The notes beneath the pieces are model-generated. The model saw only the letters and a list, made by a program, of their open reading frames with translations. It had not been told where the DNA came from and searched no databases. A program made the position numbers and the translations under genes. A DNA stretch of 64,000 nucleotides from Paraburkholderia sp. HP33-1 (lineage in GTDB: Bacteria; Pseudomonadota; Gammaproteobacteria; Burkholderiales; Burkholderiaceae), in contig NZ_JAJEJR010000001.1 in NCBI RefSeq assembly GCF_021390595.1, positions 3,414,188 to 3,478,187 on the forward strand. Reading direction: 5' to 3'. Below, one piece after another: positions 7,490 through 43,277 of the stretch. Numbering within the stretch: the first letter of the stretch is position 1; every line of letters starts with the position of its first letter.

Positions 7490-9004
7490 ATGCACCAGCC
7501 GGCCGCCAATAGTCTGCGCCGCACGCTGCTGCGACGCCTCGCTGCTCCCCTGTCGCTGCTCGCGCTGATGAGCGGCCTGATCGCTTACTGGCTCGCCTGG
7601 CAGTACACGCAGCACGTGGTCGACCGCTCGCTCGCGGACCTCGCGACCGCAATTTCCAAACAGATTCAGATTGCCGGACCGGACGCGCCCGTCACGGTGC
7701 CGCCGCTCGCGCAGGCGATGTTCTCCGACCCGGTCGAACATCTGGTCTACCGGATCAGCAACGGCGAAACCGAAATTGCCGGCGACAACGATCTGCCGCT
7801 GCAAGGCACCAACGTGCGCCGCATGCATTACGCATACGTATTCGAGACGCAGCACCAAGGCGTGACCGTGCGCGTCGCGCAGGTGCGGGTCGATCAGCCG
7901 AACGGCAATCCGATCGTCGTCGAAGTGGGCCAGCCGGTGCATCACCGCTTCCGCATCGCCGCCGAGTTCCTGGTTGCGATCATGATGCCGCTATTGTTGC
8001 TGCTGCTGGCCGGCTGGGTGATCGTGTGGCGCGTCGTCAATCAGCAGCTCAATCCGCTGACTGCGCTCGCCGATTCACTGAACCGGCAGACCCACACGTC
8101 ACTCGAACCGGTCGACGAAACCTATGTGCCGGTCGAGATCCGTCCGCTGACGGGCGCGCTGAATGCGCTCCTCGATCGTTTGAAAGCCGCCCTCGACGCC
8201 CAACGCAAATTCATCGCCGATGCCGCGCATCAGTTGCGCACACCGCTCACCGCGGTGAAGCTGCATGCGGAGCAGGCCGCCGTCGCGCGCGATCCGCAGC
8301 AGACGCTCGCGGCCGTGCGCGAGCTGCGCGCCGCGGCCGATCGCGCGGTGCGGCTGTCGAATCAGTTACTGTCGCTCGCGCGCGCCGAGCCAGGCGAGCA
8401 GGCGGCCCGCTTCGTCAATCTCGACATGGCCGCGCTCGCATTCGACACCGGCGCCGAGTGGGTGCCGCGCGCGCTTCGGGTACACGTGGATCTCGGCTTC
8501 CAGCGCCTCGACGATCCGTCGAACGGTGAGCCGTTGATGGTGCGCGGCAGCCCGGTGCTGCTGCACGAAGTGATCGCGAATCTGCTCGATAACGCGCTGA
8601 AGTATGTGCCACCCTCGCGCGCCGACGGCGCCCGTATCACGGTGACGGTTTCGCAGGCCTCGAATGACGATCTGCGCATGGCCGAGATCGTCGTCGAAGA
8701 CAACGGGCCAGGCGTGCCGCGTTCGCAGCAGGCGGATCTGTTCAAGCGATTTTTCCGGGGCGACGGGCAGGCCGACGCGGGCGTCGACAGCGGTGCGGGT
8801 CTGGGCCTCGCGATCGTCCACGACATCATGGTGCTGCATCATGGCAGCGTGCATTACGAGGATGCGCCGGAGGGAGGCGCACGCTTTATCGTGAGAATTC
8901 CGTTGTTGCCGCGAGGTGAGTCCGCAGGTGCTGGCACCGCCCACGATGCCAATGCGCGGCGCACCACAAAAAAACCGGCGCACTCGGCGCCGGTGGATTT
9001 ATAG
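7490..9004 (+). CDS. Two-component sensor histidine kinase, QseC/TctE type
   Basis: 504 residues from ATG 7490; a GTG at 7415 would add an unlikely basic leader. Order: membrane segment (about 20-40), periplasmic region with a 2CSK-like N-terminal sensor, second membrane segment (FLVAIMMPLLLLLLAGWVIV), HAMP-like linker, H box with His247 in FIADAAHQLRTPLTAV, N box (NLLDNALKYV), and G boxes (VEDNGPGVP, GAGLGLAIV). It pairs with the upstream response regulator. The last codons overlap the terminator of the convergent SET gene. The signal is unknown; relatives sense organic acids or metals. Confidence 0.94.
   Translation: MHQPAANSLRRTLLRRLAAPLSLLALMSGLIAYWLAWQYTQHVVDRSLADLATAISKQIQIAGPDAPVTVPPLAQAMFSDPVEHLVYRISNGETEIAGDNDLPLQGTNVRRMHYAYVFETQHQGVTVRVAQVRVDQPNGNPIVVEVGQPVHHRFRIAAEFLVAIMMPLLLLLLAGWVIVWRVVNQQLNPLTALADSLNRQTHTSLEPVDETYVPVEIRPLTGALNALLDRLKAALDAQRKFIADAAHQLRTPLTAVKLHAEQAAVARDPQQTLAAVRELRAAADRAVRLSNQLLSLARAEPGEQAARFVNLDMAALAFDTGAEWVPRALRVHVDLGFQRLDDPSNGEPLMVRGSPVLLHEVIANLLDNALKYVPPSRADGARITVTVSQASNDDLRMAEIVVEDNGPGVPRSQQADLFKRFFRGDGQADAGVDSGAGLGLAIVHDIMVLHHGSVHYEDAPEGGARFIVRIPLLPRGESAGAGTAHDANARRTTKKPAHSAPVDL
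8968..8995 (-). terminator. Rho-independent terminator of the SET gene, inside the kinase 3' end
   Basis: On the minus strand ACCGGCGC pairs with GCGCCGGT (8988-8995 with 8975-8982), followed by a run of seven T. It serves the SET-domain gene ending at 9037. It lies within the last codons of the histidine kinase gene, so the two convergent genes share sequence. Confidence 0.8.
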
Positions 9005-9036
9005 GGATGTGAGCGGCCTCACTCCCGGGCCGCGCC

Positions 9037-9549
9037 TCATTTCTTCTTCGATTTCTTCGCCGACTTGCCCGACTTCTCCGGCTTGCTGCCGCCCTTGCCC
9101 TTCTGCGGCGGCGCCAGCATCGTGCCGCGGCACTTGCGCGCGCCGCAGCGGCATTCGTATTCCTTTTTCAGCTTCTTTGTCTGACGCGCGTCGATCACGA
9201 GCCCGTAGTCGTAAAAGACTTCCTCGCCTTCGGCGATATCGCGCAGCGCGTGCACGTACACGTGCCCGTCGATTTCCTCGGCCTCGCAGTTCGGCGCGCA
9301 CGAATGGTTGATCCAGCGCGCGCTATTGCCGTTCACCTTGCCGTCGATGACCTTGCCGTTATCCAGCGCGAAATAAAACGTGTGATTCGGTTCGGCCGGA
9401 TTATGCGGATGACGGCGCAACGCTTCTTTCCAGCTAATCCGCTCGCCCTTGTATTCGATCAGCCGCTCGCCGGCCGCGATCGGCTCGAGAGCAAACACGC
9501 CTTTGCCGTGCACACCCGAACGGCGCACGGCGATCCTGCGTGAATTCAT
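9037..9549 (-). CDS. SET-domain protein lysine methyltransferase with lysine-rich tail
   Basis: 170 residues. Complete SET core: GVHGKGVFA near the start, the SAM/knot motif RWINHSCAPNC (79-88), GEEVFYDYG (109-116) with the catalytic-type tyrosine, and a post-SET cysteine cluster (C133, C135, C140 in ECRCGARKCRG) that with C84 would bind zinc. The tail (about 150-170) is nearly all K, S, G and P and ends SKKK. The start at 9549 is set by AAGGA eight bases upstream. Bacterial SET proteins of this type occur across Burkholderiales; the substrate is not established. Confidence 0.88.
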   Translation of the reverse strand: MNSRRIAVRRSGVHGKGVFALEPIAAGERLIEYKGERISWKEALRRHPHNPAEPNHTFYFALDNGKVIDGKVNGNSARWINHSCAPNCEAEEIDGHVYVHALRDIAEGEEVFYDYGLVIDARQTKKLKKEYECRCGARKCRGTMLAPPQKGKGGSKPEKSGKSAKKSKKK

Positions 9550-9761
9550 TGAATGAATCCTTGTGAAGAACTGGGGAATGAAGTCTGGCAATCGTCAGGC
9601 GCGTCTTGCGCGCGGCTTTTTCTGACGCGAATAACAAACGCGGCGCCCTGCGAGCGCCGCGTCGACTTGCGACGCGCATCGCGCCACAACCGGCATCCTA
9701 CACGCTGTCGGCGACTTCCTTCAACAGTCAGCCGCTCCGTTTGTTCAACGTACGACGGGCG

Positions 9762-10874
9762 TCACCGTTGACCGAACGAAATCTCGCCGAACAGCGCTTT
9801 CTGATCGCGCGGCTGCGAACGCCAGTACTGCGGCGGCGCTTCGACGGTCGCGCCGAGTTGCGCGGCGGCATGCCACGGCCAGCGTGGGTTATAGAGCAAC
9901 GCACGAGCCAGCGCGATCAGATCGGCATCGCCCGCTTCGATCAACTGCTCGGCGTGCAGCGGATCGGTGATGAGTCCGACGCCGATCGTCGCGAGACCGG
10001 TTGCGTGCTTGACCGCCTTCGCGAACGGGATCTGATAGCCCGGTTCGAGCGGAATTTTCTGCAACGGCGACACGCCACCCGACGACACGTCGATCCAGTC
10101 GCAGCCGCGCTTTTCCAGCTCGTGCGCAAACGCGATCGTGTCTTCGAGCGTCCAGCCGCCTTCGACCCAGTCAGTCGCCGACACGCGCACGCCGACCGGT
10201 TTGTCGGCAGGGAATGCGGCACGCACGATGTCGAAGATTTCGAGCGGAAAACGCATGCGGTTTTCGCGCGAGCCGCCGTAGTCGTCGGTGCGCTGATTCG
10301 CGATCGGCGACAGGAACTGATGCAGCAGATAGCCGTGCGCGGCATGCACTTCGAGCGCATCGATGCCAAGACGCGCGGCACGCCGCGCAGATGCGGCGAA
10401 CGCCTCGCGAATCCGGTTCAGGCCGGCGACATCGAGCGCCAGCGGCGGTTCCTCGCCCGGCTTGTGCGGCAAGGACGACGGCGCATGCGGCAGCCACCCG
10501 CCTTGCGACACCGGAATCAGCTGACCGCCTTCCCACGGCACATGGCTTGATGCCTTGCGGCCCGCGTGCGCCAGTTGCATCGTCACGTTGATATGCGAAT
10601 GCTTGCGGATCGTGGCCAGCACCGGCACGAGTGCCTCTTCGGTCGCGTCGTCCCACAAGCCGAGGTCGCCCGGCGTGATGCGGCCATCCGGTTCGACTGC
10701 GGTTGCTTCGATGCACAGCATGCCCGCGCCGGACAGCGCGAGACTGCCGAGGTGAATCATGTGCCATGCGGTCGCTTCGCCGCGTTCCGCGGAATACTGG
10801 CACATCGGGGAGACGACGATACGATTGGGAAGCGTCACGCTACGCAGCGTGAGCGGAGAGAAAAGCGCGCTCAT
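9762..10874 (-). CDS. Old yellow enzyme family NADPH dehydrogenase (YqjM-like)
   Basis: 370 residues, FMN-dependent TIM barrel. Motifs: N-terminal MSALFSPLTLRSVTLPNRIV, the YqjM-type cysteine in SPMCQYSAERG that tunes the flavin, the substrate-binding pair in HAAHGYLLHQFLSP, and a phosphate-binding end (GVGLITDPLHAEQL). It reduces activated C=C bonds of enones with NADPH. It stands alone on the minus strand upstream of the SET gene. Physiological substrate unknown. Confidence 0.94.
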   Translation of the reverse strand: MSALFSPLTLRSVTLPNRIVVSPMCQYSAERGEATAWHMIHLGSLALSGAGMLCIEATAVEPDGRITPGDLGLWDDATEEALVPVLATIRKHSHINVTMQLAHAGRKASSHVPWEGGQLIPVSQGGWLPHAPSSLPHKPGEEPPLALDVAGLNRIREAFAASARRAARLGIDALEVHAAHGYLLHQFLSPIANQRTDDYGGSRENRMRFPLEIFDIVRAAFPADKPVGVRVSATDWVEGGWTLEDTIAFAHELEKRGCDWIDVSSGGVSPLQKIPLEPGYQIPFAKAVKHATGLATIGVGLITDPLHAEQLIEAGDADLIALARALLYNPRWPWHAAAQLGATVEAPPQYWRSQPRDQKALFGEISFGQR

Positions 10875-10983
10875 GGATTACGCCCAATGAAAGCCCGAGA
10901 GCGATCGAGCATAGCACTGCAAGGGGTTTACTGCATGAACGTGGCGCCTGGTCGGACGCCAACGGGGCCATTCGGTTAGCCAA

Positions 10984-11697
10984 TCAGACTTTCGACTCGA
11001 CCTGATCGAGCCATTCGCCGAACATGCGACACGCGGCGGCTTCGAGCGCGGGGCCGTATCGAGCGGTGTCGGCGCGCAACTGACGCGCGTCGATGCCGCG
11101 GCCGGCCAGTTCGTTCGCATTCCCAATCAGCCAGGGCTCGAACCGGTCGGTGCGAATCTCAGGATGACACTGCAAGCACAGCACGTGATCGCCCCATGTG
11201 AAGGCCTGATTCTCGCAGGCCGGAGTCGAAGCGAGACGGGTCGCGTTGGCGGGCAGATCGAAGGTATCTCCATGCCAATGCAGCATCGACGTATGAGCGC
11301 CATCCAGATGGCGCAGCGGCGAGACGCGACCGGCATCGGTCAGCGTGAGCGGCGTCCAGCCGAGTTCGGCCTGAGCCGCAGGATAGACGCGCTCACCGAG
11401 CGCCCGCGCGACCAGTTGTGCGCCGAGGCAGATGCCGAGCGTCGGCAGACCGGCCGCGATGCGTTTTTCGATCAACGACAGCAGCGGCTTGAGCGTGGGG
11501 TAGAGCGCCTCGTCAGAGGCGCTGATCGGGCCGCCGAGCACGACCATCAGCGACGCGGCAACCGGATTGGGCGCCTCGATACGGGCGAGGCCCACATCGA
11601 GATAGCGGACCGGACGCCCGCGCTCGCCGAGCACGAGCTCGAGACTGCCCAGATCCTCGAAGTGCACATGGCGAATGGCCAGTACTTCCCGGTTCAT
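10984..11697 (-). CDS. Class I glutamine amidotransferase-like protein
   Basis: 237 residues, a stand-alone GATase1 domain of the type often labelled 'GMP synthase-like'. Nucleophile Cys90 in TLGICLGAQLVA, catalytic histidine and glutamate in LQCHPEIR, and the oxyanion GGPIS. No synthetase domain is attached and none is nearby. Proteins of this form include gamma-glutamyl-polyamine or peptide hydrolases, so the acceptor is uncertain. It lies between the OYE gene and the MarR gene. Confidence 0.88.
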   Translation of the reverse strand: MNREVLAIRHVHFEDLGSLELVLGERGRPVRYLDVGLARIEAPNPVAASLMVVLGGPISASDEALYPTLKPLLSLIEKRIAAGLPTLGICLGAQLVARALGERVYPAAQAELGWTPLTLTDAGRVSPLRHLDGAHTSMLHWHGDTFDLPANATRLASTPACENQAFTWGDHVLCLQCHPEIRTDRFEPWLIGNANELAGRGIDARQLRADTARYGPALEAAACRMFGEWLDQVESKV

Positions 11698-11840
11698 CGG
11701 CCTACCCTATCTTCAGGTTAACTAACGACTTGCCGGCAACGACTCAATCCTTGCACGGCGCCAGCCGGCAGACAGACGGCGCATGCCGCCCGCCGCTGCC
11801 GGCCAGGCCATGTTAGCGGATTGCCCCGGAAGACGCCGCG

Positions 11841-12479
11841 TTACTGGGCGAAGATCTTCCAAGTTTTCTTCTGGGTGGCGACGTCCGCGGTTTCGTGCAC
11901 GGAGCAGTCGAGACGCAGATCGGTGTCCGCCATGTTCAGGTCGAGCAGCGCGCAGTGATGCGGCGTCTTCTTTGGATTCTTGCTCGGCTGCAAATGCGTG
12001 CAGCTCAGGCACATACGATGCGACGGGATCGTGTTTTGCGCTTCGAGCTGATAGATGGTCTTGAGCAGCGTGCGATAGAACACGGCCTGCTCCTCGTCGC
12101 GCAGCGTACCGACCGCCTTGCTCAGGAAGTCCGGCCATTGCGCGGCGCGTTTGGCCGCGGTGCGGCCACGCGAGGTCAGGCGTACCGCGAGCGCACGACC
12201 GTCGTCGAGTGCGCGACGCTTTTCGACCAGGCCCTTGGTTTCGAGCGTGCTCACCGCATCGCTGGTGGTCGCGGCGGTCAGCGCCGTTTCACGCGCGATT
12301 TCGCCGAGACGCATCGGCCCCTTGCGTTGCATCAACAGCACGAGGATTTCGCCCTGGGTCGGCGTAAGGCCTGCGGCTTCCGCCCATTCCCAAGCCTGGC
12401 TTCGCATCGCCGTGCTCAATCGCAAGAGGCTGTGGGTCACTCGCCCGTTTGCCTGTTCTCCGTATACGCCTTCGCTCAT
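11841..12479 (-). CDS. MarR-family regulator with C-terminal cysteine-rich extension
   Basis: 212 residues. Residues 1-140 are a MarR winged helix (LTPTQGEILVLLMQRKGPMR, then LGEIARETALTAATTSDAVS as recognition helix, and a basic wing). About 70 further residues carry Cys157-x2-Cys160, His174-His175-Cys176 and Cys192 (MCLSCTHL, HHCALLD, LDCSVHE), a pattern able to hold a metal or Fe-S cluster. Ordinary MarR proteins are 140-160 residues. The long noncoding interval with DnaA boxes lies directly upstream. A metal or redox sensor role is inference. Confidence 0.88.
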   Translation of the reverse strand: MSEGVYGEQANGRVTHSLLRLSTAMRSQAWEWAEAAGLTPTQGEILVLLMQRKGPMRLGEIARETALTAATTSDAVSTLETKGLVEKRRALDDGRALAVRLTSRGRTAAKRAAQWPDFLSKAVGTLRDEEQAVFYRTLLKTIYQLEAQNTIPSHRMCLSCTHLQPSKNPKKTPHHCALLDLNMADTDLRLDCSVHETADVATQKKTWKIFAQ

Positions 12480-13047
12480 AATCTTCGATTCGTTTATTTA
12501 CCGTTTCGGTGCGATGCCGGCGACTGCTTGCCGGAATACGCCCGTTGCGTGTGTGGGGTAGCTTCTCCCAACCGCGGATGAAGCCGTTTTTACTATCTCA
12601 AAAATATACCGCCTTGGAAGCTCCAGGCGGCGAAAACGACATTCTATGCGAGAGCTGCAAATCGTACAGCTAACTTATCCAAAGGGGGCTGTGGATAAGC
12701 AGGGGAAAACGTTTGGACAGCCTGTGCAGCGTTTTACAACAAGCACTTGCAGCAAGTTGAACGATTCCTCGGTTCTGCTTGCAGGGCTTGGCCGACAGCG
12801 GTTTTACGAGCCCAGTTATCATTTCCCCAGCGCGTTGACTTTGCAAGAAATTATTCAGTTGTCCACAGCCTTTAGCAAGCCTGCTTACGAATACTACGCT
12901 TGTATACGTAAAGTTTCGGAAAACCTGAAGGGCTGCGCGCGTGAAAAATCATAAAAAAATTTTTACGAAAAAAAACCCGCACGCGGCGGGTTTCGTCGAA
13001 ACGTCGCGTACGTAGCGCACGCAAACGTTTTTTTGCAGTCTTCACGA
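12480..13047. other. Noncoding interval with a DnaA-box cluster and AT-rich end
   Basis: 568 bp between the MarR start and the ybdK stop, without a convincing gene. It holds a consensus DnaA box at 12690-12698 (TGTGGATAA), one-mismatch boxes at 12675-12683 (TTATCCAAA) and 12859-12867 (TTGTCCACA), and weaker ones near 12816 and 12851. A very AT-rich stretch follows at 12942-12975 and merges into the ybdK terminator. The left part must also contain the MarR promoter. It resembles one half of a bacterial origin; see the interval at 15457-16443. Confidence 0.6.
12968..12993 (-). terminator. Rho-independent terminator of the ybdK-type gene
   Basis: On the minus strand AAACCCGC pairs with GCGGGTTT around the loop CGCGT, followed by eight T. 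It lies about 55 bp past the stop of the carboxylate-amine ligase. Confidence 0.85.
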
Positions 13048-14163
13048 CTACGCACGCCACTGCAGACACTGTTGCCGCACCACTTCGTGTAAGGACTTTT
13101 CCTGCGCAAACACGCTGCGTAGCCACTTCGCGTCATTGACCTGGCCACGCGCGATCGCGCCGATTTCGGCCAGTGCGTTGACCGAACCGAGCGCTTGCGC
13201 GTGCGGAGCGATCCGTTCGAGCGTTTCGAGGATATCCTCGGAAATCGTCTTGCGTTCCCCGGTTTGCGGATTGATGCAGGTACCGCCGAGTCCGAAGCGG
13301 CAGGCCTCGAAACGGTTGAACGTGTAGACCAGATAGTCGTCTTCCTGCGGCGTGATCGGCTTGTCGAGCAGCAGATGACGCGCGAGCGTCTGGATGTAGC
13401 AGGCGATAGCCGCGGCGCGATCCACCGAAAACGGCGTATCCATCACCCGCACTTCGATCGTGCCGAAGCCGGGCTTCGGGCGGATGTCCCAGTAGAAATC
13501 CTTCATGCTGTTGACCACGCCCGTGTGGACCATCTTCGAGAAGTACTCCTCGAAGCTGTCCCACGTCAGCACGAACGGCGCCCGGCCCGACAGCGGAAAC
13601 GCGAACACGGAATTCAGCCGTGCCGAATGAAATCCGGTATCCACGCCCTGCACGAAAGGCGACGACGCCGACAGCGCGATGAAATGCGGGATGAATCGCG
13701 ACATCGAATGCAGCAGATACAGCGCGCTGTTCGGATTCGGGCACCCGATGTGCACGTGCTGGCCGAACACGGTGAACTGCTTCGCGAGATAGCCGTACAA
13801 CTCGGAAAGATACTGAAAGCGAGGCGTATCGACGATCTGCCGCTCACTCCATTGCTGGAAGGCATGCGTGCCGCCGCCGCACAGGCCGACGTTCAGATGA
13901 TCGGCTGCGGACACCAGCGTGTCGCGAATCTTGCGTAGATCGGCGACCGCCTGCTCGTGCGACGTGCAGATACCGGTCGACAGCTCGATCATGCTCTCCG
14001 TGATCTCCGGCGTGATATTGCCGGGGATTTTTTCATCCTTGATAAGGCGCAGCAGGTCCGTACCGGCTTTGGTCAGATCATAGTCATGCGTATTGACGAT
14101 CTGCATTTCGAGCTCGATACCGAACGTAAACGGTTTCGAATCGATGAAGGGTTCGAGTGACAT
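13048..14163 (-). CDS. YbdK-type carboxylate-amine ligase (glutamate-cysteine ligase GCS2 family)
   Basis: 371 residues of the ATP-grasp-like GCS2 family. Features: [11 protein letters not shown] near the N terminus, [37 protein letters not shown] and a long conserved C terminus. The family makes gamma-glutamyl compounds with weak glutamate-cysteine ligase activity; the true substrate in Burkholderia is unsettled, and a proteobacterial gshA is present at 39 kb. It lies between the two DnaA-box intervals, on the minus strand, and the antiporter gene ends 88 bp upstream of its start. Confidence 0.9.
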
Positions 14164-14250
14164 GGCGTCCCCTAGGTCAGGTCGTTTGAAGCGATGGTGT
14201 TGAAAAAGGGTTCGTGAAACGCGCGAGCCAACAAAATGCGCGTTTCGCGC

Positions 14251-15456
14251 TTACTCCTCGCGCCGCTCAGCGACGAGCGCGAGGCTGCGATAGACGAGCC
14301 ACGGCCCGAGAATCTGCAGCACGAAGATCGAACACATGACGATCGCGCGCAGTTGCGGATCGAAATTCGGATAAAGGTTGTAGGTGTCGTCGACGAGCAG
14401 ATACGCAAGCGCCGACATGGGTGACAACGACAGCCCCAGCGCCACGCCCTGCTTCCAGTTCAGGCCGCTTGGCTTCGCAAACGCAAGCACGCCGACCAGC
14501 TTCGCCGCGAGCCGCGCAACGATCAGCCCCAGCGCCGCAACTCCGCCCAACGCGATGTGCTTCCACTCGAACGACGTCAGCGTCAACACGAACAGGATAA
14601 CGGTCAGCAGCCAGCCGGCCGTGCCGAAATGCTGCGGCCACAACTGCGGACGCGCTTCGTGATTCTTCACGATGATGCCTGCGGCGAGCAGCGCGAGAAT
14701 CGTCGACAGCTTAAACAGATGCGCGATCGCGATCGCGAGCAGCACGAGACCGAACAGCGCGACGAACGAATGCTCGTCGTGCATGTTAAGGCGCCGATAA
14801 AAGAATGTGCAGGTGCGCGCGAGCAGATACGCGAGCACGAGCGAGCCGACCAGCAGATACAACGGCTGCAGGATGGTCGCAAACACGTTGCCGTAAACCT
14901 CCTGATGCAGCCAGCTCGACACGAGCTTTTCAATCACGACCGCATACATGCTGTTCAGCGCGGTCAAGGTCAGAAGACGCTGCGTGACCTGGCCTTCGGC
15001 GCGCAGTTCTGTTTTGAGCTGGATCACCATCGCCGGCGATGTCGCCATCGCGATCGCGGCGAGTACGGTCGCGACCATCAACGGCACGTGCAGGAACAGA
15101 AGCACCGGCAGTACCAGCACGAAAGTCAGCGTGGCTTCGGCGACGCTCGACAGGATCAGCCACGGATTACGGCGAATCCAGCGCAAATCCAGCCGGCTGC
15201 CCAGTTCGAACAACAACAGGCCGAGCGCGACGTCGAGCAGCGGCCGCGCGGCGCTCGCGGATTCCGCATCGATCACGCCAAAGCCAGCCGTGCCGGCCAC
15301 GAGGCCGATCACCGCGTAGCCGGAAATACGAGGTAAACGCCAGGCGCGATAGCAGAGCTCGCCGCACAGACCGGCGGCAAGCAACGCAAGACCTGCCCAG
15401 AAAATGGCGTCAGGTGAAAGCGGCCACGCTGGCAGAAACGAAAACGCCGAATTCAT
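14251..15456 (-). CDS. CPA2-family monovalent cation:proton antiporter (KefB/RosB-like membrane domain)
   Basis: About 401 residues with 11-12 hydrophobic segments spread over the whole length and no TrkA-N nucleotide-binding tail, so shorter than KefB/KefC (about 600). Typical membrane-domain traits are GYAVIGLVAGTAGFGV near the start and ATSPAMVIQLKTEL in the core. I chose ATG 15454-15456 because AAGGAG lies 11 bases upstream and the protein then begins with the first membrane segment; the upstream 22 codons look non-coding. Ion unknown, potassium or sodium likely. The long noncoding interval lies immediately upstream. Confidence 0.88.
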   Translation of the reverse strand: MNSAFSFLPAWPLSPDAIFWAGLALLAAGLCGELCYRAWRLPRISGYAVIGLVAGTAGFGVIDAESASAARPLLDVALGLLLFELGSRLDLRWIRRNPWLILSSVAEATLTFVLVLPVLLFLHVPLMVATVLAAIAMATSPAMVIQLKTELRAEGQVTQRLLTLTALNSMYAVVIEKLVSSWLHQEVYGNVFATILQPLYLLVGSLVLAYLLARTCTFFYRRLNMHDEHSFVALFGLVLLAIAIAHLFKLSTILALLAAGIIVKNHEARPQLWPQHFGTAGWLLTVILFVLTLTSFEWKHIALGGVAALGLIVARLAAKLVGVLAFAKPSGLNWKQGVALGLSLSPMSALAYLLVDDTYNLYPNFDPQLRAIVMCSIFVLQILGPWLVYRSLALVAERREE

Positions 15457-16443
15457 CGTAATGGGTTCTCCTTGGCAGCAACGGCAGACGACACGAAACG
15501 ACGCAGACGCACGCCGTGGCACGAGCGAACCGAGCGCGCTCGTTGTCGCAAGCGCTTCGCGAAGTCAGCGTTGCGAGGTTTCAATGATCGGATGATCGGA
15601 ACGCGCCGCGCACGCAAAGAACCGCACAGAGTCCGGCACATTCACGGATGCGGCTGGTGCAACACGCACGGTGAAGGAACGCCGTCGACTTCGAATCAGA
15701 TTCTGTTTGACCGGCACCGTTCCAATGCTGCGCGTGCCGCCAGATGCTGTGGCACGGCGCGGAAAAGAACGGGGATTGTGCCACAGCTTTTTCCGCATCG
15801 ACCGAAAAGACGTTAACTTGCTGGCAAAACGGTAAATAAGTACGTTATTTTCGCGACGAACGGAAAAAGCGACCTTTTTTCGACATATCACGCCAGTTTC
15901 GACTACCTCGCGAACAGCGGACTCGAGCGCCAGTGTTTACGCGGCGCGTGTGATCTCGATATGTGGTTTCGTCTGCGTTTCCCGCTTGCTCGTTTACGCG
16001 CGTCTACGTTTACCCGAGGCAATGGGAGATCCGTTTACGCGAAATCGAATGGAATTCAGCCAGCCCGATGGGCGGGGCGTTAGCCCCCGGCTTTGCTGTT
16101 TACTGGTTTACCGTATGTATACGTAGTAACAGTTAACAAGATGCCTCGGTTTCTGTGGATAACCCACGTTTACCGAAATGAATCAGCGAGTTGCCGACCG
16201 CATAACCGGATGCACAGCATGTGCGGCAGCCGCCGGTATACGCGAGCAACTTTTCGCGCTTTTTCGCGACGTTCGAGTTACCCCGTTTACGTCCACAATG
16301 GTTCCACACGACTTGCGTAGGTTAACTGCGCAGTTATCCACAGGTTGCGGTGGATAAGCCGGAACGCCGGTTAACGCGGTTTACCCGGTGGGCGGCGCTC
16401 ATCTGCCCGACGCAGTGGTTAACTTCGAAATAGTCACAGCCGG
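15457..16443. other. Candidate replication origin (oriC) of chromosome 1
   Basis: About 990 bp with no believable gene, between the antiporter start and the mnmC stop. Contents: consensus DnaA boxes at 16154-16162 (TGTGGATAA) and 16334-16342 (TTATCCACA), with a one-mismatch partner in inverted orientation at 16349-16357; nine GTTTAC repeats (15935-16384); six GTTAAC elements (15812, 16132, 16321, 16370, 16418, 16443); and an AT-rich stretch 15810-15880 that could be the unwinding element. The first 300 bp should also hold the antiporter promoter. The combination is that of a bacterial origin, but it is unproven here. Confidence 0.6.
15935..16384 (+). repeat. Array of nine same-strand GTTTAC hexamers
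   Basis: GTTTAC starts at 15935, 15992, 16008, 16033, 16098, 16106, 16168, 16285 and 16379, all on the plus strand; I found no GTAAAC inside the interval. Most are followed by C or G plus CG, giving a consensus near CGTTTACSCG. Spacing is irregular (8-117 bp). A protein-binding array, such as initiator or origin-regulator sites, is the simplest reading. Confidence 0.75.
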
Positions 16444-18411
16444 TTAACTGACCGTCCCTTGCCGCAACGCGCGCAGCAAAAAACGCGCAGGGTCGATGTC
16501 TTCGGCGAGGTCGCGTTCGAGCGGCCACGGCTCGCCTTCGATCTGCGATGCGATCAGCTCAGCCCCAAGCGCGGCCCACACCAGCCCGCGAGAACCATAG
16601 GCGAATGCGCCGTACAGGCCGTCGACGCGTGGCAGATCGAGCGGCCATGCACCGCGTAGGCGCGCAGCGTCGCGCGAAGCCGCGACTTCGTCGGCGAGCT
16701 GGCCGATCATCGGCATGCGGTCGGAGGTCACGCAACGAAACGCAACGCGACCTGCGAGCGAGGTCAGCGGCGCGGCATCGAGTGCGCCTGCGAACGCGGG
16801 CAGCATCTGTGCGACGCGCTCGATATTCTCGCGATGACCGTCGGCCCGCAATGACGTGTCGGGGTCATCGAGTTCATAGGTCGCCCCCGTCAGCGTGACG
16901 CCGTTCGCGAGCGGCACCGCGTAGCCCTCGCCGATCACGGGCAACGTGAGCGGCGCGACGGTACCCGCCGGCAGCAAGCTCAACTGACCGCGAATGCTGC
17001 GCGTCGGCGCATAACGCAAGCCGGCGATGGGCGCGGCTTCATGTGCGCCCGCGACGATCACGACCGGCGCACGCGCGAGCGCATTGCCCGCGGTGTCGAA
17101 GACGGTCCACTGATCGCCGGAACGTTCGAGACGCGCGACGTCGACGCCGAAGCGTCGTTCGACCAACCCGCCTGCCGCGGCGAGCTGCGCCGCGCACAGC
17201 GAGGCCGGATCGATCCAGCCGCCACGCGGAAAGAACCAGCCGCCACGCGCGATCGGCATGCCGGCGAGTTGCGCTGCATCGGCCGCGCCGACCGGCGTCA
17301 CGTAGTCGGACGGATAGCGGAACGTGGCGATCGCGTCGCCGATCGCGCGCGCTTCGTCGTCGTCCGCGGCGATCTGCAGCAAGCCGCGATCGCCCCGCGC
17401 GAGTTGATGCCCTGCCCGTTCGAGCGCGGCCCAACGATTGAGCGCGTAAAGGAAGCCCGCGCGCGTGACGCGCGACGCGACGCTGTCGTCGCGCGAAATC
17501 ATTGGGTGGAATACGCCGGCCGGATTGCCGGACGCGTCCTGCGCAACCGACGCATGCCGTTCGAGTGAAGTGACGCGCCAGCCACGTGCCGCGAGCCGTT
17601 CGATCACCGCGCAGCCAGCCAGCCCCGCGCCGATCACGACCGCATGTCGCGCGTCGTACGCGAACGGCGCGGGTGGCTCATAACGGCGCACGCGCCAGCG
17701 CGGCGCGAAGCGGCCGACCAGCATCGCGCGTTTCCAGCCGAAGCCGTCGACCTTCCGATACTCGAAGCCGCATTGCGTCAGTGCGCGTTTGACGTCGCCC
17801 GCGCTGGTGTAAGTGGCGAAGGTCGCATCATCGGCCGCGACGCGTGCGAGCGACTTGAAGATGGCCGGGCTCCATAGCTCCGGATTTTTCGCTGGTGCGA
17901 AGCCATCCAGATAAAACGCGTCGGCACGCAGCCGCAACGCGGGCAGGCTCTCGACTGCATCGGCAAAGATCAGCGTCAACACGACTCGTCCGCCTTCGAA
18001 TTCGAGCCGGTGCGTGCCGGGCACGAGCATCGGCCATTCGGTCGCGAGCGTGTCCGCGAGTTCGGATATCAGCGGTTCGGAGATCGTCATCGCGAGGACG
18101 CGGCGCAAATCGGCAGCGCTAAACGGATGCTTCTCGGTCGACACGAAATGCAGCCGCTCGCAGCGTGCGGGATCGGCGCGCCATGCAGCCCACGTCACGA
18201 GAAAGTTGATGCCGATGCCAAACCCGGTTTCAAGCACGGTGAACGTGCGACGGCCTTGCCATCGTTCGGGCAATTCGTTGCCACGCAGAAAGACGTAGTG
18301 AGCCTGCTCGAGCGCGCCGACGGCGCTGTGATAGATGTCGTCGTAGAACGGTGAATAGGGGCTGCCGTTGTCGCGGAAAGCGAGGACGGCGGAGATCAGC
18401 GGATCGGTCAT
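16444..18411 (-). CDS. mnmC: Bifunctional tRNA 5-methylaminomethyl-2-thiouridine biosynthesis protein MnmC
   Basis: 655 residues, the normal two-domain length. The N-terminal SAM methyltransferase (MnmD) has LETGFGIGINFLVTW (about 60-74) and YLDGFAPAKNPELW. The C-terminal FAD oxidoreductase begins with VVIGAGLAGCAVIERL (about 255-270). The C domain removes the carboxymethyl group of cmnm5s2U34 and the N domain methylates the product, finishing the wobble uridine begun by MnmE/GidA. mnmE is also in this window (57970-59364). The stop overlaps the last GTTAAC element of the presumed origin. Confidence 0.96.
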   Translation of the reverse strand: MTDPLISAVLAFRDNGSPYSPFYDDIYHSAVGALEQAHYVFLRGNELPERWQGRRTFTVLETGFGIGINFLVTWAAWRADPARCERLHFVSTEKHPFSAADLRRVLAMTISEPLISELADTLATEWPMLVPGTHRLEFEGGRVVLTLIFADAVESLPALRLRADAFYLDGFAPAKNPELWSPAIFKSLARVAADDATFATYTSAGDVKRALTQCGFEYRKVDGFGWKRAMLVGRFAPRWRVRRYEPPAPFAYDARHAVVIGAGLAGCAVIERLAARGWRVTSLERHASVAQDASGNPAGVFHPMISRDDSVASRVTRAGFLYALNRWAALERAGHQLARGDRGLLQIAADDDEARAIGDAIATFRYPSDYVTPVGAADAAQLAGMPIARGGWFFPRGGWIDPASLCAAQLAAAGGLVERRFGVDVARLERSGDQWTVFDTAGNALARAPVVIVAGAHEAAPIAGLRYAPTRSIRGQLSLLPAGTVAPLTLPVIGEGYAVPLANGVTLTGATYELDDPDTSLRADGHRENIERVAQMLPAFAGALDAAPLTSLAGRVAFRCVTSDRMPMIGQLADEVAASRDAARLRGAWPLDLPRVDGLYGAFAYGSRGLVWAALGAELIASQIEGEPWPLERDLAEDIDPARFLLRALRQGTVS

Positions 18412-18780
18412 GCGCGACGAAAAAACACGCTCAAAAGGACGCTCGAAAGAGCAGGTTCGATGGACCGAGTCGGTGCGTGCCGCTCGCGATTCGTCCTAAA
18501 AGACCCACCGGGACACGTGCGGGCGCCTTGCCGCGTTGGAAAAAACCAACGCCAAGCCCCGCCAGGACTGGGTTTCAGGCCTCGTTTAGGGGGTGCAGAG
18601 GGGCAAAATTTCGATTTCCTCGCAAGAACGGCCCGAGAACCGCGCATTTCTTCGAAAGCCTTATCCTGATTGGGTTTGCGCTGCGCTATCATAGCAAGCG
18701 CCGCGAAGGGAGCGGCAGCACGGCCGCCGAACAGGGTTCTGTTTGGCGCGAGAGATCTTCAGGATCAGGACCGCAGCTGC

Positions 18781-18808
18781 TCGACGGCGCGGTGCGCGCA
18801 CGTATAAT
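18781..18808 (+). promoter_or_regulatory. Promoter of the HU gene
   Basis: TCGACG at 18781-18786 and a perfect -10 TATAAT at 18803-18808 with a 16-bp spacer, 50 bp before the HU start; AAAGGAA gives the ribosome-binding site. The rest of the 446-bp gap (18412-18857) shows no gene; TATCAT near 18688 could be a second, upstream -10. Confidence 0.65.
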
Positions 18809-18857
18809 CGGCGCGGTCGCGCTGTTCGTATCAACCTAAACTCAGAAAGGAACCTTA

Positions 18858-19136
18858 ATGAACAAACAGGAACTGATCGACGCTGTCGCAGGACAGACGG
18901 GCGCCAGCAAAGCTCAAACCGGTGAAACGCTGGACACGTTGCTTGATGTGATCAAGAAGTCTGTGTCGAAGGGTGATGCGGTCCAGCTGATCGGCTTCGG
19001 GAGCTTTGGTTCGGGCAAGCGCGCAGCGCGTACGGGTCGCAATCCGAAGACCGGCGAAACTATCAAGATTCCGGCTGCCAAGACAGTCAAGTTCACGGCA
19101 GGCAAGGCGTTCAAGGACGCGGTCAACAAGCGCTAA
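18858..19136 (+). CDS. HU-family nucleoid DNA-binding protein
   Basis: 92 residues, a full HU/IHF fold. N-terminal [19 protein letters not shown], central [19 protein letters not shown] (the DNA-binding arm with the conserved RNP), and C-terminal [12 protein letters not shown]. It bends and compacts DNA and in many bacteria assists DnaA-dependent opening of the origin. It has a consensus promoter and its own terminator, so it is monocistronic. It is the first plus-strand gene to the right of the presumed origin. Confidence 0.97.
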
Positions 19137-19168
19137 GCAGATTACCGTCGGGCAGTTGACACCCGCGA

Positions 19169-19195
19169 GAAACCCGCCAATGGCGGGTTTTTTTT
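19169..19195 (+). terminator. Rho-independent terminator of the HU gene
   Basis: AACCCGCC pairs with GGCGGGTT around a 3-base loop and is followed by a run of T, about 35 bp past the HU stop. Confidence 0.9.
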
Positions 19196-19234
19196 CGTCC
19201 ATGCGGTGTGCTTCAAACACGCCGCGTGCTTCGC

Positions 19235-20590
19235 TCAGTCGTGACGATGCACGGTCTGGCCATGTCCGCAATGCTCGCAGTCGTCGCCGTGTCCGTGATG
19301 ATGGTGATGGTGGCCGTGATCGTGATCGTGATCGTCATCATCGAAGTCCCACGCCGGGAACGGATCGGGGAACTGCTGCCAGGCTTGCGGCCCTAGCGCG
19401 TATTCGTCGTCGGTGAGGAGACACGCGTCGAACCTCGCGCGCCAGATGGCGGGATCGATATCGACGCCGATCAGCACGAACTCCTGACGACGATCGCCGA
19501 TGCTCATATCGTCCGGTGCGCCGTACCAGTCCGCGGCGATTTCGGCGGCCAGCTCGTCGTCGCCTTCCGGCCATTCGCTGCGATCCTGCGCAGCCCACCA
19601 CATGCCCGCCGGACCATGCCGGCAAGCGCCACCTGCCTGCGATAGCGAGCCGCCGATATCGTTGCGCGTCGCGAGCCAGAAGAAACCCTTGCTACGCAGC
19701 ACACCCTTCCACTCCTGATGCAGCAACTCCCACAGCCGCTGCGGATGAAAGGGCCGGCGCGCGCGATAGACAAAATGGCCGACGCCGTATTCGTCGGCTT
19801 CGCTGTGATGCGTGTGGCCGTGCTGAGCGCCGTGCTCGTGCTCTTGTTCGTGCTCGAGCGCCGCGAGCCAGCCCGCCGCATTCGACGCCGCGTCGAAATC
19901 GAAGCGCCCGGTGTTCAGCACCTGGTCGAGCGGCACCTCGGCGAAGCGGCTCACGAGTTGCACGGCCCGCGGGTTCAGGCACGCGAGGATGCGCTGCAAA
20001 CGTGCGAGTTCGTCGGCGCTGACGAGATCAATCTTGTTCACGACAAGCACGTCACTAAACTCGATCTGCTCGATCAGCAGTTCGACGACCGTTCGGTCGT
20101 CGTCCTCGGTGACTGCGATGCCGCGTTCGGAGAGCGCGTCGGCCGACGCGTAGTCGCGCAGGAAGTTGAAGGCATCGACGATCGTGACCATCGTGTCGAG
20201 CCGCGCGACATCGGCAAGCGACGCGCCGTCGTTGTCGTCGACGAACGTGAAGGTCTCGGCGATCTGTATCGGTTCGGTGACGCCGGTCGATTCGATCACG
20301 AACGCGTCAAAGCGCTTTTCGCCGGCGAGGCGATGGATTTCATCCAGCAGATCGTCGTGCTGCGTGCAGCAGATGCAGCCGTTCGTGAGTTCAACCACCT
20401 GTTCGCCGACACGTGGCGGCTCGGCCGGAGTCTGCACGAGCGTTGGGTCGATATCGACGGTGGCGAGATCGTTGACGATCACCGCGACGCGCAAGCCGGC
20501 GCGATTCGCGAGGATATGGTTCAGGAGCGTGGTCTTGCCGGCGCCCAGAAAACCGGAGAGCACGGTGATGGGCAATAGCGGCTGGTTCAT
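19235..20590 (-). CDS. CobW/COG0523 GTPase with histidine-rich metal-binding segments
   Basis: About 451 residues from ATG 20588-20590. G1 loop GFLGAGKTT (13-21), the diagnostic metal motif C72-I-C74-C75 in TNGCICCTQ, a VNKIDL G4 motif and a C-terminal CobW_C domain. There are two histidine-rich tracts: one in the middle ([16 protein letters not shown]) and a tail mixing D, H and G with a CEHC pair. The family passes zinc or other metals to client enzymes; His-rich members (ZigA/ZagA/YjiA-type) are usually zinc-related. No Zur site was identified. The longer frame to 20683 adds an unlikely leader. Confidence 0.92.
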
Positions 20591-21177: not shown

Positions 21178-21678
21178 CAATCAAGACGACTAATTAAAGT
21201 CGAGGTAAGAATTGGTAAGGCGGTTTGCCGGCCGCTATGCGGCCGCAACAGCAAGCTGGCCGGGCGTTTGTCGGACATCGGGGAAAACCCGTGTCAGCAA
21301 ACACAAAACAGCGAGTCGAACGGCTCGTATCATACCGGCAGTCCGATCATCGTCAAGTTGGCTAACCGACATAAGACCGCATAAGCCCGGCTAATGTCGG
21401 GAGCGTACGGTGGTGCCGGTTAGCTTTCATTTTAATAACGGCAGCGTGAATCTTTAACGGATTCGCATGCGGTCGCTCGTTTTGTTTCAAATCCGACATG
21501 AAAAGCTGTTACTGTTCGATCTTTTCGGACGTCGGGGCGCCTGAGCTCGAAGCGAAGTTCGCTGTTAAGGCGGGCTCACAGGCCGATTGGGCGGCGGCTT
21601 GCTGCCAGGTCCGCATCGCATGACCGTCGGTGGCCGAGGCTGCCGGTATCGATATCACATCCCATGAGAAGAAATAGT
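21178..21678. other. Intergenic region upstream of gspD
   Basis: About 500 bp, no gene seen. It contains a 7-bp inverted repeat CCGACAT/ATGTCGG at 21366-21400 and a GGCCGC-TAT-GCGGCC dyad near 21230. Promoters for the transglycosylase and for gspDEF must lie here; I could not place convincing -35/-10 pairs. Confidence 0.5.
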
Positions 21679-24003
21679 ATGGCTTTGCGTCGCGTTGCAA
21701 CGGCGCTGCTGGTGGCTGGACTGATCACCGCGCAGGCAGCACAGGCACAGGTGACACTGAACTTCGTCAACGCCGACATCGATCAGGTCGCGAAAGCGAT
21801 CGGCGCTGCGACCGGCAAGACGATCATCGTCGATCCGCGGGTGAAGGGGCAACTGAACCTCGTCTCCGAAAACGCGGTGCCCGAGGATCAGGCACTCAAA
21901 ACCTTGCAGTCCGCGCTGCGCATGCAGGGCTTCGCGCTCGTACAGGATCATGGCGTGCTGAAAGTGGTGCCCGAGGCGGACGCCAAGCTGCAAGGCGTGC
22001 CGACCTATGTGGGCAACGTGCCGACCGCGCGCGGCGACCAGGTCGTCACACAGGTCTTCACACTGAGGAACGAATCGGCCAACAACCTGCTGCCGGTACT
22101 GCGTCCGCTGATCTCGCCGAACAACACCGTCGCAGCCTACCCCTCTAACAACACTATTGTCGTTACCGATTACGCCGACAACGTTCGGCGCATCGCGCAG
22201 ATCATCGCGGGCGTCGATAGCGCGGCGGGCCAGTCGGTTGCGGTCGTGCCGCTGAAGAACGCGAACGCGATCGACATCGCGCAGCAGCTGAACAAGATGC
22301 TCGACCCGGGCTCGATCGGCAGCACGGACGCGACGCTGAAGGTGTCGATTTCGTCTGATGCGCGCACCAACTCGCTGCTGATGCGCGCATCGAACACCGC
22401 ACGCCTCGCGGCGGCGAAGGAGCTCGCGAAACAGCTCGACGTGCCGACCACGATGCCCGGCAACATTCACGTCGTGCCGCTGCGCAACGCGGATGCGACA
22501 AAGCTCGCGCGCACGCTGCGCTCGATGCTCGGTAAGGGCGCCGGCGGCGAAGGCGGTTCGTCGGCTGGCTCGAACGAGGCCAACGCGTTCAACCAGAACG
22601 CCGGCGGTGGGGGCGGCAGCAGCACTTCGACGGGCGTTGCCGGCACGGCGCCGTTGCCGTCGGGTGGTCTCGGCAGCAGTTCGATGGGCTCGTCGCCGAT
22701 GGGCGGCTCTTCCGGTTCGGGCAAGGAGTCCGGCGGCTTCCTCGGTGGCGACAAGGAGAAGGGCAGCGAGGACCAGGGCGGCGGTATGATCACCGCCGAT
22801 GCGGCGACCAACTCGCTGATCGTCACGGCGCCCGAGGCGGTGTACCGTAATCTGCGCGCGGTGATCGACCAGCTCGATGCGCGTCGCGCTCAGGTGTATA
22901 TCGAGGCACTGATCGTCGAGCTGAATTCGAATACGAGCGGCAACCTCGGTATTCAGTGGCAGGTCGCGAACGGTAACTTATTTGCCGGTACCAACCTGGC
23001 GACTGGCTCGGGCAACAGCATCATCAACCTGACGGCCGCGGCGGCCGCGGCTGGATCGACCGGCGGCCTCGCGACGGCGCTGGGCACCCAGGGCCTGCAA
23101 CAAGGCCTGAACGTCGGCTGGATTCACAACATTTTTGGCGTTCAGGGTCTCGGCGCGTTGCTGCAGGCGCTGTCGCAGACCGCCGACGCGAATGTGCTGT
23201 CCACACCGAACCTGATCACGCTCGACAACGAAGAAGCGAAGATCATCGTCGGTACCAACGTGCCGATCCAGACCGGCTCGTATTCGAACCTGACGAGCAG
23301 CACGACGAGCACGGCTTTCAACACGTTCGACCGCGTCGACATCGGTCTGACGCTGCACGTGAAGCCGCAAATTACCGATGGCGGCATCCTGAAGCTGCAG
23401 CTCTACACGGAAGACTCGGCGATCGTCAACGGCACGAACAACGCGTCGACGAACCCGCAGGGCCCGGAATTCACGAAGCGTTCGATCCAGTCGACCGTGC
23501 TGTGCGATAACGGCGAGATCATCGTGCTCGGCGGCCTGATGCAGGACAACTACCAGGTCAGCAACAGCAAGGTGCCGCTGCTTGGCGACATTCCCTGGCT
23601 GGGCCAGCTGTTCCGCTCCGAGCAGAAGACGCGCGACAAGACCAACCTGATGGTCTTCCTGCGCCCGGTGATCCTCGCCGACCGCGAAACCACGCAGGCC
23701 GTCTCGGCGAACCGCTACGACTACATCCAGGGTGTGCAGGGTGCGTACCGTTCGGACAACAGGGTCATGAAGGATCACGACGATCCAGTCGTGCCGCCGA
23801 TGCCAGTCGGCCCGAGCCAGGGCGGGGTGCCGGCGATGAACCTGTTCGACCTGAACCAGATGCGCCGCCAGCAGCAGGCACCGCAACCGATCCCTCAACA
23901 GGTTCCTCAACAGATGCCGCCGCAGGCGGTGCCGCAAGCCGCCGTCGTCGATCCGGCAAGCGGCGTGGTGTCGAGCACGGTGTCGCCGGGAGCGCATCCG
24001 TGA
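21679..24003 (+). CDS. gspD: Type II secretion system secretin GspD
   Basis: About 774 residues. Signal peptide (ALRRVATALLVAGLITAQAAQA), N0 domain (LNFVNADIDQVAKAIG), three N domains, a Gly/Ser-rich insertion (about 280-360) within the third N repeat, and the secretin domain with VPLLGDIPWLGQLFR and a C-terminal Pro/Gln-rich tail. It forms the outer-membrane channel. ATG 21664 would add five residues; 21679 is preferred because AGAAG sits seven bases upstream. First gene of gspDEF; gspE overlaps its stop. Confidence 0.97.
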   Translation: MALRRVATALLVAGLITAQAAQAQVTLNFVNADIDQVAKAIGAATGKTIIVDPRVKGQLNLVSENAVPEDQALKTLQSALRMQGFALVQDHGVLKVVPEADAKLQGVPTYVGNVPTARGDQVVTQVFTLRNESANNLLPVLRPLISPNNTVAAYPSNNTIVVTDYADNVRRIAQIIAGVDSAAGQSVAVVPLKNANAIDIAQQLNKMLDPGSIGSTDATLKVSISSDARTNSLLMRASNTARLAAAKELAKQLDVPTTMPGNIHVVPLRNADATKLARTLRSMLGKGAGGEGGSSAGSNEANAFNQNAGGGGGSSTSTGVAGTAPLPSGGLGSSSMGSSPMGGSSGSGKESGGFLGGDKEKGSEDQGGGMITADAATNSLIVTAPEAVYRNLRAVIDQLDARRAQVYIEALIVELNSNTSGNLGIQWQVANGNLFAGTNLATGSGNSIINLTAAAAAAGSTGGLATALGTQGLQQGLNVGWIHNIFGVQGLGALLQALSQTADANVLSTPNLITLDNEEAKIIVGTNVPIQTGSYSNLTSSTTSTAFNTFDRVDIGLTLHVKPQITDGGILKLQLYTEDSAIVNGTNNASTNPQGPEFTKRSIQSTVLCDNGEIIVLGGLMQDNYQVSNSKVPLLGDIPWLGQLFRSEQKTRDKTNLMVFLRPVILADRETTQAVSANRYDYIQGVQGAYRSDNRVMKDHDDPVVPPMPVGPSQGGVPAMNLFDLNQMRRQQQAPQPIPQQVPQQMPPQAVPQAAVVDPASGVVSSTVSPGAHP

Positions 24004-43212: not shown

Positions 43213-43277
43213 CTGTCTCCTCCATGTCTCCTCCTGATATGGATTCAGCCCGCTCCACTTGAGCGGGCTTTTTTTTT
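43213..43277 (+). ncRNA. Candidate small RNA with two anti-Shine-Dalgarno motifs
   Basis: About 65 nt from the predicted start to a strong rho-independent terminator: AGCCCGCTC (43247-43255), loop CACTT, GAGCGGGCT (43261-43269), then nine T. The 5' part carries TCTCCTCC (43216-43223) and TCTCCTCCT (43227-43235), complementary to AGGAGGA ribosome-binding sites, and should be single-stranded. Small RNAs using C/U-rich anti-SD seeds are known in several bacterial groups. The rest of 42989-43364 shows no gene. No name assigned. Confidence 0.65.

Follow-up and report, generated by a model that had tools for sequence, protein, structure and literature searches.

The stretch of DNA analysed here (the window) is the final 64 kb of contig C1 (3,478,187 bp) in a Paraburkholderia genome of 7.35 Mb and four contigs; positions without a contig prefix are those of the window. 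At the start of C1, positions 1-936 hold a dnaA frame that lacks its first part; dnaN and gyrB come next. Because this partial frame opens the contig, C1 looks like circular chromosome 1 opened within dnaA. A second match to the DnaA ATPase domain (38.3 bits), at C4:127704-128060, may belong to a DnaA-like, Hda-like or other AAA+ protein. The relevant part of the window contains:

13048-14163, minus strand: gshA, glutamate-cysteine ligase gene (GCS2 family), between modules i and ii
14251-15456, minus strand: Na+/H+ exchanger gene (PF00999), between modules i and ii
15457-16443, no strand: gene-free interval with the putative main origin module (module i), from the ORF list and the skew plateau
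16444-18411: mnmC (PF05430 and PF01266), the other neighbour of the interval
18858-19136: HU gene (PF00216)
21664-24003: gspD

No ORF of at least 120 aa lies inside 15457-16443. The interval is gene-free, adjoins mnmC and has the HU gene nearby, as the first-pass annotation described it. A 140-aa ORF on the plus strand overlaps it by 5 bases, and the exchanger frame has an alternative start (GTG at 15522, versus ATG at 15456). The interval is downstream of mnmC and is flanked by two genes of the same reading direction. Elsewhere in the window, positions 43214-43276 match the Betaproteobacteria toxic small RNA (RF02278, 83.6 bits, E 1.7e-15).

The locus had been framed by reference to B. pseudomallei, which holds as a parallel only; the host genus is Paraburkholderia instead. 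Among the best 80 of 89 mnmC relatives, the nearest come from Burkholderia sp. H160 (95%) and Paraburkholderia. These 80 gave 78 distinct loci for comparison, spanning Paraburkholderia, Caballeronia, Trinickia and a leaf-symbiont Burkholderia; very near genomes possibly fall outside this set.

Elements of module i

The following elements were located in and around module i:

15812-16448, no strand: GTWWAC array, 17 sites (16 inside the interval)
16092-16141, no strand: the 50 bp with the lowest nearest-neighbour stability in the interval, beside box 16154
16113-16137, minus strand: putative unwinding motif GTTAACTGTTACTACGTATACATAC, 16 bp outside the R1-like box, containing three DnaA-trio-like triplets
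16154-16162, minus strand: consensus DnaA box in the R1-like place, adjoining the unwinding motif
16181-16193, plus strand: IHF-like site (WATCARNNNNTTR, 0 mismatches; window sequence AATCAGCGAGTTG), 27 bp from the start of the R1-like box
16275-16298, minus strand: inner block TTGTGGACGTAAACGGGGTAACTC, strongly conserved (78 loci and window), with a box-like site (by eye) and one GTWWAC
16334-16342, plus strand: consensus DnaA box in the R4-like place, 180 bp from the first
16349-16357, minus strand: one-mismatch box that pairs with 16334 as an inverted doublet, which is repeated in the opposite orientation at 12675/12690

Exact DnaA boxes (TTATCCACA) occur in the window at 12690 (minus), 16154 (minus), 16334 (plus) and 63137 (minus). 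The first-pass annotation had counted four consensus boxes, three of them in 12.6-16.4 kb, and had given 16349 (minus) as the one-mismatch partner of the two in the gap; all these positions are correct, and its claim of a density far above chance was confirmed by shuffling both the window and the interval. In the window, boxes with at most one mismatch number 11 against 3.07 expected, and TTATNCACA occurs 4 times against 0.33 expected; none of 100 shuffles reached either count. The interval alone holds 2 exact boxes (0.004 expected) and 3 with at most one mismatch (0.10 expected), the latter count being reached in 0 of 1000 dinucleotide shuffles. A cluster of DnaA boxes beyond chance is therefore present in a gene-free region. 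Two further box pairs were seen outside the window. An exact pair 348 bp apart, at C1:3382523 and 3382871 (L018 12523-12879), lies 48 kb left of the putative origin without an unwinding motif, its first box in ORF 10473-12719 and its second between that ORF and the one at 13185. Near the start of C2 (C2:7006-7040, L126), two exact inverted boxes 26 bp apart are possibly part of the chromosome 2 origin.

The spacing and orientation of boxes 16154 and 16334 are those of R1 and R4 in E. coli oriC. In E. coli MG1655 (L127), exact boxes, which we take to be the ones named R1 and R4, are found at 1302 and 1482, 180 bp apart and oriented as in the window. The E. coli IHF site, placed here on the same assumption, is GATCAACAACCTG, 27 bp from R1, and the IHF-like site of the window has the same offset. 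The resemblance is weaker in the interior, where module i and E. coli share 54 of 171 positions versus 41.9 +/- 5.7 in shuffles (about 2 sd). A pair with a gap of 169-173 bp was present in 3 of 120 genomes of the order, that is 2 of 4 from this family and 1 of 116 from other families. Because of this weak interior identity and the rarity of the pair in the order, we claim likeness to E. coli oriC and not descent.

Analysis of the corresponding loci indicated that the arrangement is conserved at the same place in relatives. Allowing one mismatch in all, 75 of the 78 loci keep the box pair at 179-181 bp, and the loss of boxes in close relatives that would have spoken against an origin was looked for and did not occur. 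The exceptions are two Pararobbsia loci (L091, 170 bp; L096, no pair) and a symbiont MAG (L093, 193 bp). Paraburkholderia xenovorans LB400 (L058) has the core, its boxes standing 180 bp apart. The IHF-like site is present within one mismatch in 69 of the 78, at offset 27 in 61 and at offset 22 in 8. In an alignment of the 78 cores with the window, the best-conserved parts include the boxes, 16275-16298, the IHF-like triplets and the unwinding motif. At family level, an inverted pair with a gap of 160-185 bp was found in 145 of 249 genomes and 13 of 25 genera (0 in the reversed control) and was not found in the other 104 of the 249.

The AT-rich stretch at 15810-15880, proposed earlier as part of the origin, was confirmed (61% AT), but the 50 bp of lowest stability in the gap lie elsewhere, at 16092-16141. 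As expected of an oriC, this unstable element stands beside the boxes; 39 overlapping 50-bp segments elsewhere in the 64 kb are less stable. The complementary strand of the unwinding motif reads GAC AAT GAT running away from the box, which is a DnaA-trio pattern. By eye, this run begins 21 bp from the box, beyond the limit of the published search, whose rule for a basal unwinding system calls for three or more NAN triplets no farther than 16 bp from a DnaA box (PMC8287927). A weaker trio run, TAG AAC AAT, begins 11 bp from the box in module i and was not seen in modules iii or iv, both by eye.

At up to three mismatches, the motif occurs at three sites only in the whole genome, namely modules i, iii and iv; its zero mismatches there are by construction, because the consensus was written from those three sites. 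In the corresponding gap of the 78 loci it has 0 mismatches in 49, at most one in 67 and at most four in 77, L094 being the sole locus from which it is absent at this threshold. The control, 156 mnmC and gshA gene bodies searched at up to four mismatches, gave 0 matches.

What had been noted as dense short repeats is GTWWAC, a methylation motif, with 16 copies in the gap against a shuffle mean of 1.28 and a maximum of 6 (1000 shuffles). Seven related palindromes of equal base make-up have 0-2 copies each in the interval. Similarly, the 78 intergenic loci (70.2 kb) contain 666 GTWWAC (3 to 21 per locus, median 8), and the seven other patterns 11-55. The background in the sampled genome, window included, is 126 in 764 kb. 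A methylation motif is therefore enriched at the putative origin, as at methylation-controlled origins; a pattern of GTWWAC pairs spaced by 6 proved uninformative. One protein of the genome scored above the cut-off for the N6_N4 methyltransferase family (PF01555), with a second match below it, and its gene lies between trpB and trpA on C2. From the family and the trpB-trpA neighbourhood we infer that this protein is the GTWWAC enzyme here; the B. cenocepacia enzyme gene is presumably in the trp operon. In B. cenocepacia and R. solanacearum, an orphan methyltransferase methylates adenine in GTWWAC (PMC7364216, PMC5390034), and GTWWAC and CACAG marks were reported at the origins of B. cenocepacia (PMC7364216). 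Methylation at such origins is already known; what is added here is the density of the array over the core.

Strand composition and the mirror module

GC skew was calculated for nineteen 20-kb stretches sampled over C1 and, for the cumulative curve, over a contiguous 484 kb. The nine stretches from 0 to 1.6 Mb gave values of 0.001 to 0.031 (C1:1-20000 near zero), and the ten from 1.8 to 3.41 Mb gave -0.006 to -0.052. The skew is negative to the left of a plateau at 8.2-19.7 kb of the window and positive on average to the right, and in the sampled stretches these signs hold for about 1.6 Mb on each side. The cumulative minimum of the contiguous 484 kb falls at 10197, 5.9 kb off module i, and the values within 40 of it extend over 8244-19746, an 11.5-kb plateau. 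There is thus a switch in strand composition, as expected of an oriC; its resolution is several kb, and it covers modules i and ii, which the skew does not separate.

Other positional signals agree with the skew. All 8 KOPS-like octamers (GGGNAGGG) between -200 kb and 18 kb are in reverse orientation, with 0 forward; between 18 and 284 kb, 14 are forward and 3 reverse. In five relatives, picked from 58 for their long contigs (three look closely related), the cumulative minimum lies at -2820, -2933, -2930, -2994 and -2954 bp from module i. All five minima are inside the module pair and nearer to module ii, itself at about -3.2 to -3.3 kb, and they are known to a few kb only because the positions within 40 of the minimum span 3.2 to 16.4 kb. 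Two parS sites were found 29-31 kb from module i (at -14.8 and -13.2 kb), one inside mnmG of an mnmG-rsmG-parA-parB cluster and one next to it. Collectively, the skew, the KOPS-like octamers, the minima of the relatives and the parS sites place the switch at the mnmC-gshA stretch and not at dnaA, 47 kb off, which supports the earlier choice of this gap over dnaA. A search for dif with an E. coli-like core and at most 2 mismatches found nothing, so the terminus, between about 1.6 and 2.0 Mb, is placed solely from the skew.

Module ii is an inverted counterpart of module i, about 3.2 kb off at 12675-12907, in the gap between a marR-type gene and gshA:

12675-12698, no strand: far box doublet of module ii (TTATCCAAA on plus, TTATCCACA on minus), mirroring 16334-16357
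12859-12867, plus strand: near box of module ii, TTGTCCACA
12883-12907, plus strand: remnant of the unwinding motif, with 6 mismatches here

We consider it plausible, if on balance doubtful, that the origin is bipartite, with modules i and ii acting together, or with opening at ii and the DnaA platform at i, like the origins of H. pylori or B. subtilis. The bipartite origins of these two species have two DnaA-box clusters with the dnaA gene between them. Here too, two box clusters are separated by one or more genes; they differ in that the modules are homologous and inverted and that each carries an unwinding-like motif. The box doublets of i and ii are mirror images, the skew minima of the five relatives are closest to ii, and 73 of the 78 loci have, under loose scoring (at most 8 mismatches), an intact or degenerate inverted motif at a distance of 2787-3324 bp from that of i. 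A tree of 36 modules, taken from 11 of the 78 loci, the window and chosen copies of modules iii and iv, argues in the same direction. In it, the copies of module i fall into one supported group (100/99) and those of module ii into another (96/94), so i and ii are old paralogues and not recent copies.

Against a bipartite origin stands the state of the ii motif. It has 0-2 mismatches in 44 of the 78 loci, 0-3 in 54 and 4 in one, but 5-8 in 19, where chance or a one-base shift may contribute in some loci. Of the remaining four, L060, L067 and L074 have none and L063 has only one, in the wrong orientation. Decay is seen in the window (6 mismatches) and in L020-L026 (5-7), where the motif of i is intact (0), and in this genome the 300 bp on each side of the ii motif together contain only one GTWWAC. 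Because module ii is decaying in this genome, we take module i as the main one.

Distant modules

Two further copies, modules iii and iv, align over their length with module i and have direct boxes 184 bp apart; their motifs are as good as those of i, a point against an origin at module i. Module iii (boxes at C1:6468/6652, motif at 6677) follows gyrB and adjoins an AraC/GyrI-type gene. A transposase gene of the Mutator family occupies C1:5139-6389 (L001), between gyrB and module iii. Module iv (boxes at C1:3233942/3234126, motif at 3234151) lies beside a DUF2242 gene, 196 kb to the left.

Candidates for both were found in relatives. Among ten for module iii, L165, L166, L167 and L169 keep exact boxes at -209 and -25 together with the AraC/GyrI neighbour; in L163 and L164 this neighbour is a weak match and the far boxes are changed; L168 has gyrB beside it and the near box only; L160-L162 have an inverted pair and none of the iii neighbours. 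Among seven for module iv, four lie beside DUF2242: L174 and L176, in which both boxes are exact, and L173 and L175, with one-mismatch boxes at -209 and -208. The other three, L170-L172, have the near box only and no tested neighbour in common. L160-L162, L170-L172, L177 and L178 (the last two from G261) carry the motif without iii or iv neighbours; counted as unassigned here, they may be further or moved copies. At up to 2 mismatches the motif is present in all 58 genus genomes, at one place in 8, two in 18, three in 15 and four in 17 (counted by eye), and the box-plus-motif pattern in 148 of 249 family genomes and 13 of 25 genera. In the tree of 36 modules, iv was grouped weakly (49/42) and iii was not one group.

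The 10-kb skew beside module iv ranges from -0.009 to +0.014 over 70 kb. Module iv may be a weak secondary origin, which the skew neither favours nor opposes. The flat stretch itself, at about C1 3.23-3.30 Mb (-180 to -110 kb relative to the window), belongs to the left replichore; for about 70 kb the skew there stays close to zero or is weakly positive. It begins near module iv and could stem from an inversion, from acquired DNA or from weak local initiation. Modules iii and iv may be DnaA-control sites or relics; the skew gives no sign of regular firing. A possible model is offered by datA, DARS1 and DARS2 of E. coli, which have DnaA boxes at fixed chromosomal places; they differ in that the legend in PMC10380432 shows an unwinding element for oriC only, and modules iii and iv carry the motif.

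Interpretation and precedents

The gap at 15457-16443 is, judging from its sequence, very probably the start point of main-chromosome copying. We regard it as highly probable that the oriC of chromosome 1 lies in this interval. In the simplest account, module i would be an origin of the E. coli kind, opened by DnaA with an IHF-like protein, and module ii its helper or a decaying second half. From the position, skew, conservation, spacing and motifs we infer the protein contacts, the opening, and the methylation with its effect as follows. DnaA would bind the R1-like box (16154) and the R4-like doublet (16334/16349), and an IHF-like protein would bend the DNA at 16181-16193. A DnaA oligomer, via lower-affinity sites such as 16275-16298, would then reach the unstable 16092-16141; opening would occur at the DnaA-trio-like motif at 16113-16137, and helicases would be loaded both ways. 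Module ii could be a second DnaA platform looping to module i, or a spare opening site. Both strands of the GTWWAC array would carry methylation, each firing would leave the sites hemimethylated for a time, and this state could delay re-initiation, as GATC does with SeqA in E. coli.

Beyond the spacing of boxes and IHF site, the proposed origin resembles E. coli oriC in having an unwinding element outside R1, methylation motifs throughout and a location away from dnaA. It differs in its neighbours, which are mnmG and mioC in E. coli and mnmC and the exchanger gene here, and in having GTWWAC and a DnaA-trio-like motif, with a mirror module nearby, where E. coli has GATC and the AT-rich L, M and R elements.

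Alternatively, the boxes and GTWWAC sites might form a DnaA- or methylation-regulated promoter or a control site like datA or DARS, the true origin being elsewhere. In E. coli, datA and DARS2 also pair DnaA boxes with IHF sites (PMC10380432), and GTWWAC is promoter-enriched in Ralstonia (PMC5390034). The place of the interval, downstream of mnmC between two same-direction genes and coinciding with the skew switch, makes this reading very improbable. An origin at rpmH-dnaA or behind gyrB at module iii, such as many bacteria have, is scarcely credible: module iii is homologous to module i, with box pair, motif and GTWWAC sites, and an exact box (63137) lies upstream of dnaA, but this box and one GTWWAC are all that 62.7-64.0 kb contain, the skew is positive on average over 16-64 kb, which together with the single box speaks against dnaA itself, and across module iii it runs opposite to what an origin would show (+0.029 over the 10 kb on its left, -0.034 over the 10 kb on its right).

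An origin away from dnaA has already been published for Cupriavidus metallidurans. On CHR1 of strain CH34, the skew transition lies about 90 kb from dnaA and adjoins a 213-nt stretch with three perfect boxes (PMC2864759). In B. cenocepacia J2315, oric1 was described with DnaA boxes, an IHF site, an AT-rich block and short repeats, a second box cluster was noted near nucleotide 1 and the skew minimum, and the exact position of the chromosome 1 origin was called uncertain by the authors (PMC4948915). The passages of that report considered here describe neither inverted homologous modules nor a 180-bp pair; overlap with its map is possible. Double origins were proposed elsewhere from box counts and skew, including in R. 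pickettii (PMC4403523). In the titles and abstract openings of the open-access literature we found no account of a mirror pair, extra modules or so dense a GTWWAC array.

More tentatively, chromosome 1 of Paraburkholderia may carry as many as four homologous origin modules that form a conserved family. The head-to-head modules i and ii around gshA and the exchanger gene would be the origin, and iii and iv would be distant paralogues that keep box pair and motif as DnaA-control sites or dormant reserve origins, all of them GTWWAC-methylated. The most detailed study that we found for the group, in B. cenocepacia, did not settle the precise location of the chromosome 1 origin; the 190-bp core with its fixed spacing, common to dozens of species, offers a target of a few hundred bases. 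With the GTWWAC array there is a defined place at which a methylation clock other than GATC/SeqA and GANTC could be tested. Should modules iii and iv hold DnaA or open, they would offer a natural test of whether more than one origin-like site can persist on a bacterial chromosome, and of how firing stays restricted to one.
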